Positions 858 to 3,653 of a DNA stretch of 64,000 bases are shown piece after piece. Made by a program: the position numbers and the translations under genes. The notes beneath the pieces were generated by a model. The model was not told where the DNA came from, made no database searches, and worked only from the letters and a program-made list of their open reading frames with translations. Origin of the DNA: Amycolatopsis cihanbeyliensis (GTDB lineage: Bacteria; Actinomycetota; Actinomycetes; Mycobacteriales; Pseudonocardiaceae); contig NZ_VFML01000001.1 in assembly GCF_006715045.1 (NCBI RefSeq), positions 4,122,501 to 4,186,500 on the forward strand, given 5' to 3'. The stretch's first letter is position 1; every line of letters begins with the position of its first letter.

Positions 858-1505
858 ATGACTGTGTTCGAGTACGTGGCCGACAGATGGGATCGGCTCT
901 ATCTGCAGGGGCTGTTGCACGCCAGTGCCGTCGTCCAATGCACGATCATCGCGGCGGTACTCGGAGTGGGGATCGGGATCGCGGTGTACCGCAGCCCGGT
1001 CGGCTCCGCACTGGCCACCGCGCTGGCCAGCAGCATCCTGACCATCCCTTCCTTCGCCCTGCTCGGCCTGCTGATCCCGGTGGTGGGCCTCGGCACCGAG
1101 CCCACGGTGATCGCGCTGGTGCTGTACGCGTTGCTGCCGATCGTGCGTAACACCATCGTCGGCCTCGGCGGGGTGGATCCCGCGGTCACCGACGCGGCCA
1201 AGGGCATCGGGATGAGCCGGATCGGCGTGCTGAGCCGGATCGAGCTGCGACTGGCCTGGCCGGCGATCCTGGCCGGAATGCGGGTGGCGACGCAGATGCT
1301 GATGGGCATCGCGGTGATAGCCGCCTACGCCAAGGGGCCGGGGCTCGGTTCCGAGGTGTTCTCCGGGCTGACCAGGGCGGGTAGCGCGAACTCGCTCAAC
1401 CAGGCCCTGACCGGGACCGTCGGCGTCGTGCTGCTGGCGCTGGCGCTCGACGGCATCTATGTCCTGATCGCCCGCTTCACCGTCTCGAGGGGTATCCGTG
1501 CCTGA
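858..1505 (+). CDS. Glycine betaine/choline-type ABC transporter permease (OpuCB/ProW-like)
   Basis: Inner-membrane permease of 215 residues with about five hydrophobic segments. It carries the binding-protein-dependent transport signature around 'AAKGIGMSRIGVLSRIEL' and the phrase 'YALLPIVRNTIVGL' typical of OpuCB/OpuBB permeases. The ATG at 858 is preferred over in-frame codons from 600 because the upstream residues are hydrophilic and unlike the family, and purine-rich GGAGAG precedes this ATG. It overlaps the ATPase gene by 8 bases and is co-transcribed with it. Together with 2827-3597 it should form a heteromeric channel importing compatible solutes. Confidence 0.9.
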   Translation: MTVFEYVADRWDRLYLQGLLHASAVVQCTIIAAVLGVGIGIAVYRSPVGSALATALASSILTIPSFALLGLLIPVVGLGTEPTVIALVLYALLPIVRNTIVGLGGVDPAVTDAAKGIGMSRIGVLSRIELRLAWPAILAGMRVATQMLMGIAVIAAYAKGPGLGSEVFSGLTRAGSANSLNQALTGTVGVVLLALALDGIYVLIARFTVSRGIRA

Positions 1506-2670
1506 GAATGACGCCGTATCCGGGGTCGAGCTGGAGCTCGAACACGTCACCAAGCGGTACCCGGGAACCGGGGAACCGGCGGTGAACGACTTCTCCATGG
1601 TGGTGCCCGCGGGGAAGATCGTGATCTTCGTCGGGCCCTCCGGCTGCGGCAAGACCACCACCATGCGGATGATCAACCGGCTGATCGAGCCCACCTCGGG
1701 GCGGATCACCATCGGCGGGGAGGACGCGCTCGAGCTCAACCCGGACACCCTGCGCCGCCGGGTCGGCTACGCCATCCAACAGGCCGGGCTGTTCCCGCAC
1801 TTCACCGTGGCACAGAACATCGCGGTGGTTCCCGGCCTGCTCGACTGGTCCAGGCAGCGGATCACCGACCGGGTGGACGAGATGATGGACCTGGTCGGCC
1901 TGGACCCGGCGGTCTACCGCGACCGTTACCCGCGGCAGCTCTCCGGCGGGCAGCAGCAGCGGGTCGGGGTGGCCAGGGCGTTGGCGGCCGACCCCCCGGT
2001 GCTGCTGATGGACGAGCCCTTCGGCGCGGTCGACCCGATCACCAGGGGAAACCTGCAGGACGAGCTGCTGCGGCTGCAGACCGAGCTGCGCAAGACCATC
2101 GTCTTCGTCACCCACGACTTCGACGAGGCGGTCAAGCTGGGCGACCGGATCGCGGTGCTCGGTGACCAGTCCTCGATCCTGCAGTACGACACCCCGGAGG
2201 CGATCCTGGCCAACCCCGCCGACGACACCGTGGCCGGGTTCGTCGGCGCGGGTGCCTCGCTCAAGCAACTCACCCTGCTGCGCGTGCGGGACGTCGAGGT
2301 CAAGAACGACGCGCTGACCGCGATCGCTTCCGAGGACTCGCCGGCCGGGTTGCGGGAGAAGTTGTCCGGGCACCGCACCAAGTACGCGCTGGTGCTGGAC
2401 GAGCGGCGCCGCCCGACGCGTTGGGTGCACCAGCGGGACCTGGCCACGGCGGGCTCGCTGGCCACCGCGGGCCGGGCGATCGGCGACTCGGTGAGCACGC
2501 AGTCCACGCTGCAGGACGCGCTGGAGGCGATCATCACCGAGGGCGGGAACGCGGTGGTGACCGGGACCCGCGGTGAGTACGTCGGCACCATCGACATCAA
2601 GACGGTGACCGACACCGTGCAGCAGCTACGTGAGGAGCACGCCGAGGCCGCGGAAGGTGCGGACGCATGA
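1498..2670 (+). CDS. Osmoprotectant ABC transporter ATP-binding protein with CBS domains (OpuCA/ProV-like)
   Basis: ATPase of 390 residues. Walker A GPSGCGKTTT lies near residue 45, the signature LSGGQQQRVGVARAL near residue 145, and Walker B VLLMDEPFGAVDP follows. The C-terminal third (about 250-375) looks like the tandem CBS module that senses ionic strength or nucleotides in OpuA/OpuC transporters. The GTG start overlaps the end of the upstream permease by 8 bases. The TGA stop shares an ATGA with the first copy of the 80-bp repeat that follows. It energises uptake together with the two permeases and the lipoprotein. Confidence 0.93.
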   Translation: MPENDAVSGVELELEHVTKRYPGTGEPAVNDFSMVVPAGKIVIFVGPSGCGKTTTMRMINRLIEPTSGRITIGGEDALELNPDTLRRRVGYAIQQAGLFPHFTVAQNIAVVPGLLDWSRQRITDRVDEMMDLVGLDPAVYRDRYPRQLSGGQQQRVGVARALAADPPVLLMDEPFGAVDPITRGNLQDELLRLQTELRKTIVFVTHDFDEAVKLGDRIAVLGDQSSILQYDTPEAILANPADDTVAGFVGAGASLKQLTLLRVRDVEVKNDALTAIASEDSPAGLREKLSGHRTKYALVLDERRRPTRWVHQRDLATAGSLATAGRAIGDSVSTQSTLQDALEAIITEGGNAVVTGTRGEYVGTIDIKTVTDTVQQLREEHAEAAEGADA

Positions 2671-2826
2671 GCGGTGAGGGCGACGCCTCGCGAGCATCGC
2701 AGGTCCGGCCCGCGGGGCGAGGAGCGCAGCGAGAAGGAGTCGAGCCATGAGCGGTGAAGGCGACGCCTCGCGAGCATCGCAGGTCCGGCCCGCGGGGCGA
2801 GGAGCGCAGCGAGAAGGAGTCGAGCC
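2667..2826 (+). repeat. Two tandem 80-bp units, each a 27-codon ORF coupled by ATGA
   Basis: Two head-to-tail 80-bp copies (2667-2746 and 2747-2826) differ at one base (2678 G versus 2758 A). Each begins with ATGAGC and ends with a Shine-Dalgarno-like GAGAAGGAG seven bases before the next ATG. Because 80 is not a multiple of three, each copy encodes a 27-residue ORF (MSGEGDASRASQ...VEP) whose TGA lies in the ATGA of the next unit. Thus 2667-2750 and 2747-2830 link the ATPase stop to the permease start at 2827 by three successive ATGA junctions. It may be a dispersed intergenic element of this lineage (from memory, not checkable here). Confidence 0.9.
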
Positions 2827-3597
2827 ATGAGCACCGTGGCCGGGTTCTCCACCGAGTCGGGCTCCAAGCGCGCCGATCGGATCCGGCTGTTCGCCCAGCC
2901 CGCGGCCGTGTTCGTCATGGTCACCGCCGTGCTGATCTGGGCGTTCACCAGGGACAACGACGAGATCGAGGCGGAGTCGATCCAGGCGGGGGTGCTGCTT
3001 ACCCGCACCTGGGAGCACCTGCTGATCACCATCGTGGTGACCGCGATCGTGGTGGGGGTCGCGGTGCCCCTCGGGGTGATGCTGACCAGGAGCTGGGCCC
3101 GCCCGGTCACCCCGCTGTTCACCGGGATCGCGAACATCGGGCAGGCGGCGCCCGCGCTCGGCGTGATCGTGCTGTTCTTCCTGTGGACCGACTGGGAGGG
3201 CCTGTGGTGCGCGGCCCTGCCGCTGGCCTTCTACTCGCTGCTCCCGGTGCTGCGGAACACGATCGTCGGCATCCAGTCGGTCGACCCCGCCCTCGTCGAC
3301 GCCGGAAGGGGGATCGGCATGTCCGGTTCGGGCGTGCTGTTGCGGATCGAGGTGCCGCTGGCGATCCCGCTGATCCTGGCCGGCCTGCGTACCTCGCTGG
3401 TGCTCGCGGTCGGCACCGCCACGCTGGCGTTCTTCGTCAACGGCGGCGGGCTCGGCGAGCTGATCGACACCGGGTACAAGCTGAACCGGGTGCCGGTGCT
3501 GCTGGTCGGCGCGGTGCTGGCGGTCGGGCTGGCGCTGCTGGTCGACTGGCTGGGCGCCGTGCTCGAGGAGTACCTCGGACCGAGGGGCCTGTCGTGA
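2827..3597 (+). CDS. Osmoprotectant ABC transporter permease (OpuCD-like)
   Basis: Second permease, 256 residues, longer at the N-terminus than the first, with about six hydrophobic segments. It repeats the family phrase 'YSLLPVLRNTIVGI' and the EAA-like loop 'DAGRGIGMSGSGVLLRIEV'. The ATG at 2827 is chosen because it follows the strong GAGAAGGAG supplied by the second copy of the 80-bp repeat and overlaps that repeat's mini-ORF stop in ATGA. Its 3' end lies inside a second, unrelated tandem repeat that leads to the lipoprotein gene. It pairs with the product of 858-1505. Confidence 0.92.
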   Translation: MSTVAGFSTESGSKRADRIRLFAQPAAVFVMVTAVLIWAFTRDNDEIEAESIQAGVLLTRTWEHLLITIVVTAIVVGVAVPLGVMLTRSWARPVTPLFTGIANIGQAAPALGVIVLFFLWTDWEGLWCAALPLAFYSLLPVLRNTIVGIQSVDPALVDAGRGIGMSGSGVLLRIEVPLAIPLILAGLRTSLVLAVGTATLAFFVNGGGLGELIDTGYKLNRVPVLLVGAVLAVGLALLVDWLGAVLEEYLGPRGLS

Positions 3598-3653
3598 GGG
3601 GCTTGCCGCGAGGGGGCTTGCTGTCAGGGGGACTGCTGTGAGGGAGCTGCCAT
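3582..3653 (+). repeat. Five imperfect 14-15-bp tandem units at the permease/lipoprotein junction
   Basis: Units start at 3582, 3596, 3610, 3625 and 3640. Each begins GAGGGG, GAGGGGG or a variant and ends in a GTC/GCC/CTG-containing half, for example GAGGGGCTTGCCGC. The array spans the permease stop (3595-3597) and runs into the ATG of the binding-protein gene (3652). Every unit carries a Shine-Dalgarno-like G-rich core, so repeat number could affect initiation at 3652. Confidence 0.75.

Follow-up and report, generated by a model that had tools for sequence, protein, structure and literature searches.

A dispersed 80-bp repeat at a start-codon junction of Amycolatopsis cihanbeyliensis, probably of the type of the mycobacterial interspersed repetitive units

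The 64-kb stretch of Amycolatopsis cihanbeyliensis DNA analysed here (the window) contains an operon of the glycine-betaine type, in which, by Pfam, a first permease gene is followed by an ABC transporter ATPase gene, a pair of tandem 80-bp repeats, a permease gene and the gene for an OpuAC binding protein. The repeat is an insertion in the ATPase/permease junction. It is not a chance pattern, because dispersed copies exist and a sister genome has a clean empty site. Very probably, it is a mobile repeat of the type of the mycobacterial interspersed repetitive units (MIRUs), which preserves the coupling between termination and reinitiation of translation. As judged from lengths and substitutions, the phase of the repeat would be under selection, and the peptide that it encodes would not.

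Layout and insertion at the ATPase/permease junction

Units 1 and 2 are identical at 79 of 80 bases, the sole difference being a G at 2678 vs. an A at 2758, and the pair heads the 19 rows reported by Tandem Repeats Finder (TRF; period 80, 2.1 copies, 98% matches, score 327). Each unit holds the start of a small open reading frame (ORF) of 84 nt, the TGA of which sits in the ATGA that opens the next frame. The stop codon of the ATPase gene (TGA, 2668-2670) overlaps the ATG of mini-ORF 1, and the permease gene begins at 2827. This arrangement, i.e., two units differing at one base, with 84-nt ORFs chained by ATGA and a Shine-Dalgarno sequence for each, had been described in the initial annotation and is confirmed from the sequence. 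The features are as follows.

2667..2746, + strand: repeat unit 1, 80 bp, holding the start of mini-ORF 1 (TRF, pairwise comparison, genome BLAST)
2747..2826, + strand: repeat unit 2, 80 bp, one base different from unit 1 (TRF, pairwise comparison, genome BLAST)
2667..2750, + strand: mini-ORF 1, 27 codons and a stop, peptide MSGEGDASRASQVRPAGRGAQREGVEP (ORF reading)
2747..2830, + strand: mini-ORF 2, peptide identical to that of mini-ORF 1, MSGEGDASRASQVRPAGRGAQREGVEP (ORF reading)
2734..2739, + strand: AAGGAG, Shine-Dalgarno-like, 7 bases 5' of the ATG at 2747 (sequence)
2814..2819, + strand: AAGGAG, Shine-Dalgarno-like, 7 bases 5' of the permease ATG at 2827 (sequence)
2667..2672, + strand: ATGAGC, left border, probable target-site copy (from border identity)
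2827..2832, + strand: ATGAGC, right border, equal to the permease gene start (empty-site comparison, border test)
2674..2745, + strand: part of unit 1 under the family hairpin (17 pairs, alignment A4)
1498..2670, + strand: upstream gene, ABC transporter ATPase (PF00005; Pfam)
2827..3597, + strand: downstream gene, permease (PF00528; Pfam)

Evidence for insertion comes from relatives of the operon. Among named genomes, 166 relatives of the permease were found, and the best 80 were fetched. The ATPase gene lies upstream of the permease gene at all 80 loci, and the junctions comprise 77 direct RTGA overlaps (54 ATGA and 23 GTGA), two TGATG overlaps and the junction of Pseudonocardia oroxyli (L116). 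The 80-bp element was found at none of these 80 orthologous junctions; a single likeness of 11 bases at L055 is located within the permease gene. In the sister genome G013, which belongs to the same genus, the permease is 95% identical and the junction is free of the element: it reads GGACGT-ATGAGCACCGTC vs. GGACGC-[160 bp]-ATGAGCACCGTG in the window, a clean difference of 160 bp. Six further genomes of the genus were inspected, in which five junctions are short RTGA overlaps as judged by eye.

Other short sequences also occur at this junction. At the overlap in L116 stands a 38-bp tandem (3n+2) of unrelated sequence, with the chaining through GTGA/ATGA kept, and a different short insert stands at the ATPase/permease junction of L294 (genome G056, same genus). 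Within the 64-kb window, no further copy of the repeat core was found above chance level. A degenerate 15-bp tandem at 3594-3648 (3.7 copies, 73% matches, units like GTGAGGGGCTTGCC) occupies the intergenic stretch from the permease stop to the start of the binding-protein gene.

Dispersal, reading phase and spread

The initial annotation had proposed a genome-wide search with the 80-mer. Against the 7.4-Mb genome that harbors the window, this search returned 57 BLAST rows, 36 of them with E < 1e-5, and a profile model found 35 copies with E < 1e-15. The analysis of this genome was confined to full units, with weaker partial matches left aside. The copies group into 20 arrays of 1-4 full units each. 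By ORF criteria, all 20 arrays are in the sense orientation between co-oriented genes, and the random positions considered in the initial annotation are thus not what is found. A long upstream ORF stops near the left border of the arrays (least clearly for L033). On the other side, the next gene opens directly at the right border, behind a partial extra unit, or in the same frame as the array. The upstream TGA lies inside the left RTGA in 15 of the 20 arrays; in this count, the borders of L019 and L031 were shifted by 3 nt, and L006 is ambiguous owing to a second long frame that terminates 11 nt before. Fourteen proteins encoded downstream of arrays were scanned, and the 11 with Pfam matches are of diverse housekeeping kinds.

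Most units in this genome measure 80 bp, and those of L027 and L030 measure 77 bp; both lengths are 3n+2 and give mini-ORFs of the stop-restart kind. In L027, a 1-nt deletion is followed by a 2-nt deletion, which jointly restore the phase. Units of 81 bp (3n) are found in four arrays, L019, L023, L026, and L031. The 81-bp arrays L019, L023, and L031 continue in frame into the gene that follows, the product of which would gain repeated blocks of 27 residues; in L031, AGG is found at the codon where the native start is expected. L026 (81+80) forms one mini-ORF of 54 codons, followed by a restart.

Outside this genome, 90 copies were examined, which are the best-scoring of the returned loci, counted without re-fetched duplicates, the partial copy L153, L254, for which the coordinates failed, and the 20 regions L219-L238. 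At most analysed sites, the element stands at a start codon: 52 of the 90 copies reach from an RTGA holding the stop of the upstream gene to an RTGA that opens the downstream gene, and a further nine have a downstream start without that exact RTGA stop or start. The lengths of the 52 coupled copies are strongly biased, with 42 of 3n+2, nine of 3n+1 and one of 3n, where chance would give one third each. The 42 in-phase copies measure 74, 77, 80, 83, 86, or 92 bp, and in all but one of them (41/42, the exception being L123) the mini-ORF is closed exactly at the next RTGA. Thus, the coupling logic of the initial annotation, i.e., a 3n+2 element reaching from ATGA to ATGA, holds elsewhere too. When orthologous sites are collapsed by their downstream protein, 33 groups are obtained, of which 28 are mainly 3n+2, four mainly 3n+1, and one 3n. 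The terminal ATGA is part of the search models, and most units that went into them were 80 bp long; this favors RTGA borders and lengths of ~80 bp among the hits but not multiples of three across the range of 74-92 bp. Since the lengths across this range are mostly 3n+2, translation through the repeats is probably under selection.

The element occurs in 2 of 60 genomes of its own genus by BLAST, and in 16 of 390 genomes and 6 of 46 genera of its family, Pseudonocardiaceae, with model R1. With model R2, which was built solely from copies in the window's own family, related copies were found in 99 of 397 genomes and 27 of 85 genera of the order, and in 87 of 316 genomes of the genus g53. The family, order and g53 searches scored 11-15 candidates per genome, and the copy numbers are, therefore, lower bounds; when 150 candidates were scored, matches at E <= 0.001 numbered 39 in G374, 15 in G375, eight in G013, five in G201, and two in G165. 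The genus g53 appears to be Mycobacterium; in one genome of g53, EF-Tu and EF-G have their best matches in PDB chains that we take to be mycobacterial. Its tandem copies are mostly spaced by 76-78 bp. No copy was found in plasmids, queried with the window unit and one Mycobacterium-like unit, or in phages, queried with one Mycobacterium-like unit only.

Several recurrent sites were seen in these genomes. A copy lies between an EF-G-like gene (ending in ..KEIIAKATG) and the EF-Tu gene at L259, L263, L264, L266, and L267 of g53, at L193, L195, L196, L198, and L201 of family f16, and at L205 of f8; at L267, the upstream gene is EF-G by PDB match. The end of the EF-G-like gene itself, GCGAAGGCGACGGG.., resembles the left arm of the element and recurs 3' of it, and it may be the target or the progenitor of the element. 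Core-only copies of ~40 bp (model positions ~23-65) are represented by L153 and by short matches in G374 and G375; one of these core-only copies is flanked by short inverted repeats and lies away from a start codon. Perhaps, they are another form of the element.

Hairpin, borders and competing explanations

Forty-two units from four families were aligned (L251, one of 38 references, was left out), and a hairpin of 17 pairs spans the unit. The hairpin covaries: 87.0% of the cells pair vs. 24.5-40.9% in slid controls, double-sided changes occur in 74 cells vs. 34.1 in shuffles (a number not reached in any of 500), and a covariation score of 0.265 compares with 0.107 in shuffles (0/500). The 17-pair structure was taken from RNAalifold on a smaller, overlapping set. 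Run on all 42 units, RNAalifold gives just 10 pairs, six of them with double changes, and the outer part of the hairpin is therefore less certain. At columns 42-43 with 53-54, Watson-Crick doublets are found in 21 of the 42 units, tandem G.A in 20 and another combination in one; GA/GA occupies columns 19-20 with 76-77 in 38 units. The hairpin is also present in the Mycobacterium-like units of the alignment, and unit 1 of the window breaks one of its pairs (columns 41-55, G-G). Individual sequences show no clear folding advantage over shuffles (z of -1.46 to +1.25, eight strands), and the hairpin might therefore act at the level of DNA or together with a protein.

Borders were compared for 14 of the 20 own-genome arrays and, elsewhere, for one copy per site (six sites in G013 and 27 in other genomes). 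Within an array, the two borders match each other beyond RTGA more than in within-group shuffles, with P 0.006 for matches and P 0.004 for the run at the 27 other sites. The agreement extends over 9-10 bases at L008, L021, and L125, and covers RTGA alone at many sites. These borders point to duplication of ~5-10 bp of the target site, with the start codon among the duplicated bases. A duplication of this kind would explain why the unit both begins and ends in ATGA, and the terminal ATGA is probably duplicated target, i.e., the start codon, rather than element sequence alone.

These data are consistent with transposition with target duplication, as we infer, along the following lines. A body of ~70-75 nt inserted in the sense of the genes at the RTGA overlap of ATPase and permease and, as suggested by the identity of the borders, would have duplicated ~6 nt including the start codon. 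The body brings along a Shine-Dalgarno sequence and an open frame, and the unit length is 3n+2, so that a ribosome finishing the ATPase could restart on the mini-ORF and terminate exactly at the next start. In this way, translation of the operon would survive the insertion. The second unit would be a tandem doubling, and arrays presumably grow by recombination. Selection for termination-reinitiation would then maintain the phase rather than the peptide, whilst the long imperfect hairpin with its tandem G.A steps was kept throughout the family, probably because the mobilising machinery or the RNA of the element needs it.

Several observations weigh against the reading as a mobile repeat that preserves coupling. 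In a GC-rich genome, the ORF criteria alone are loose, as 81 of the 653 RTGA sequences in the window are flanked by 80 open codons on both sides. The agreement of the borders is weak at many sites (own genome, P 0.066 for matches and 0.003 for the run; G013, 0.029 and 0.25). The insertion sites are not limited strictly to start codons, since 29 of the 90 outside copies lack a qualifying start codon at their right border; among these are copies that adjoin a second or partial unit and others that lie at the end of an EF-G gene. Furthermore, 10 of the 52 coupled copies depart from the 3n+2 phase, and the mini-ORF of L123 is interrupted by an in-frame TAG. The out-of-phase copies include five at a 76-bp site that recurs in g53, flanked by a gene ending in GREWRRP and a gene starting with MIVDLPDTNTGAINKK, where the mini-ORF stops after eight codons; L250 and L261 are similar to these, and L119, L190, and L257 are further cases. 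Finally, the transposase domain Y1_Tnp (PF01797) was detected in none of 28 genomes, of which 15 carry the element and 13 lack it, with 5 of 14 control genomes positive, and mobilisation by a Y1 transposase of the RAYT type, i.e., associated with repetitive extragenic palindromic (REP) elements, is rejected. These points also qualify the claim in the initial annotation that the element can duplicate in any number without breaking coupling: units are indeed mostly 3n+2, but the read-through 81-bp arrays, the TAG in L123 and the out-of-phase copies depart from it.

At L239-L248 in g53, one or two copies, mostly of 76 bp and out of phase, stand at one junction in many species. Presumably, the genes at this junction, as well as those at the recurrent 76-bp site, are zwf and opcA.

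Other explanations can be weighed against the same data. The tandem of P. oroxyli demonstrates that duplication of unrelated sequence does occur at this junction, and slippage or recombination may well have produced the second copy in the window. However, that the operon's own sequence gave rise to the first copy by local slippage has a negligible probability and is rejected, given the presence of the 80-mer at 20 places in the genome and its absence from the junction in G013. A functional 27-residue peptide is very improbable as well. The mini-ORF frame is open and similar across most own-genome units, but across 19 units taken from this genome and from G013 it accumulated 24 synonymous and 69 nonsynonymous changes, where 34.0 synonymous changes were expected, and L123 carries its stop codon; the peptide is not conserved as such, and this explanation is rejected. 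Frame 2, one of the three frames tested, showed an excess of synonymous changes (46 vs. 32.2 expected, P 0.002). Somewhat less remote, yet still improbable, is a structured RNA acting in mRNA stability, attenuation or protein binding, with the ORF being incidental. The covariation over 42 units and the exchange of Watson-Crick doublets with tandem G.A at one step fit this explanation, whereas single units in the sense strand gave z-values of only -1.46 to +0.57 relative to shuffles, an Rfam scan of positions 2400-3100 of the window returned no match at E up to 1, and the maintenance of phase over six lengths would be needless for a pure RNA element.

The initial annotation had further suggested that a local element multiplies to tune expression of the permease, i.e., that copy number acts as an adaptive rheostat of permease relative to ATPase. 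At apparently orthologous sites, G013 and the own genome do differ in unit number: L119 of G013 has one unit vs. three and a partial one at L038, and L120 has one vs. two at L026; at a third such pair, L124 and L011, there is one unit each. This comparison covers two related genomes. Also, the senX3-regX3 MIRU region of M. tuberculosis is reported to drive senX3-independent expression of regX3 (PMC4213456), and the copy number of a variable-number tandem repeat to change promoter activity (PMC4128351). In contrast, the calculated accessibility of the Shine-Dalgarno sequence is nearly the same at the empty site (0.34) and with one or two units (0.36), which leaves structural gating unsupported, although over the wider start region the value drops from 0.43 to 0.34 with units, and the host genes have diverse housekeeping functions. 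With dispersed insertion, and with the element absent from the 80 orthologous junctions and from G013, the suggested local multiplication is unsupported, and the rheostat is an unlikely explanation, if the least unlikely of these. The reading as a MIRU-type mobile repeat that preserves coupling is preferred over all of them.

Relation to known repeats and meaning

Work by Supply et al. in 1997 is said to have proposed transposition of MIRUs into DTGA sites, and the MIRUs described in that year reportedly were without dyad symmetry. The window family resembles MIRUs, e.g., the senX3-regX3 or ETR-D arrays, in several respects. It is also short, dispersed and often tandem (36 matches in 20 arrays), it lies between cistrons and in their orientation (20/20 own arrays by ORF criteria, window genes by Pfam), and it contains a small inner ORF that overlaps its neighbors, by -4 nt at the start codon (in the window and in 41 of the 52 coupled copies elsewhere). 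Moreover, the model built from the own family only finds similar tandem units of 76-78 bp in g53. Unlike MIRUs, the window family also occurs in several families outside g53, has mostly 80-bp units, and forms in-frame 81-bp arrays; the covarying hairpin may be a further difference. This comparison is based on descriptions of MIRUs and on the g53 copies. Pattern searches with a published primer found no tuberculosis-complex genome among those searched, and three near matches lie in other genes.

REP elements are likewise short, dispersed and hairpin-forming, with a short fixed border sequence, but they are not known to carry a coupled ORF; the window family further differs from REP/RAYT systems by the absence of Y1_Tnp from 28/28 genomes. 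The Betaproteobacterial repeat element (PMC3110155) is similar in its size of ~90 bp, its many, tandem copies, a copy number varying among genomes and features of mobility, but it belongs to another phylum and is usually intergenic, and no coupling to a start codon is described in the part consulted. The translationally coupled short ORFs of bicistronic designs, as reviewed in PMC12548453, similarly hand the ribosome to the next start via an ATGA overlap; they are single designed or native leaders, whereas the short ORF of the window arrives with a dispersed insertion.

The principle of start-codon coupling has already been published for mycobacterial MIRUs. According to a 2025 review (PMC12548453), which cites the 1997 work, MIRUs seem mobile, insert at start codons and have an inner ORF coupled at -4 nt. 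The senX3-regX3 units measure 77 and 53 bp (PMC2453075; PMC4213456), and the effects of such regions on expression or promoter activity, as reported in PMC4213456 and PMC4128351, favor a regulatory role in some cases. Among the open-licence literature, searched partly by sequence words only, no description of MIRU-like elements outside mycobacteria was found. New here are the spread beyond mycobacteria, the hairpin, the statistics of phase and the in-frame 81-bp arrays.

A wider and rather doubtful proposal is that an old superfamily of mobile hairpins targeting start codons spans the Mycobacteriales, with MIRUs as its mycobacterial branch. Its members would insert in the sense orientation, duplicating start codons, with a stem that alternates between Watson-Crick and tandem G.A steps, by an undescribed mechanism that perhaps reads starts at the level of mRNA. 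If so, the two phases, 3n+2 for restart and 3n for fusion, would generate coupled mini-ORFs and new protein N-termini, respectively. The empty-site pairs, together with the structural signature, can be used to hunt for the mobilising machinery, and the lengths of the units provide quantitative evidence for selection on translation through such repeats. The repeats that are used for typing tuberculosis strains are linked to a mobile family that apparently extends over the whole order.
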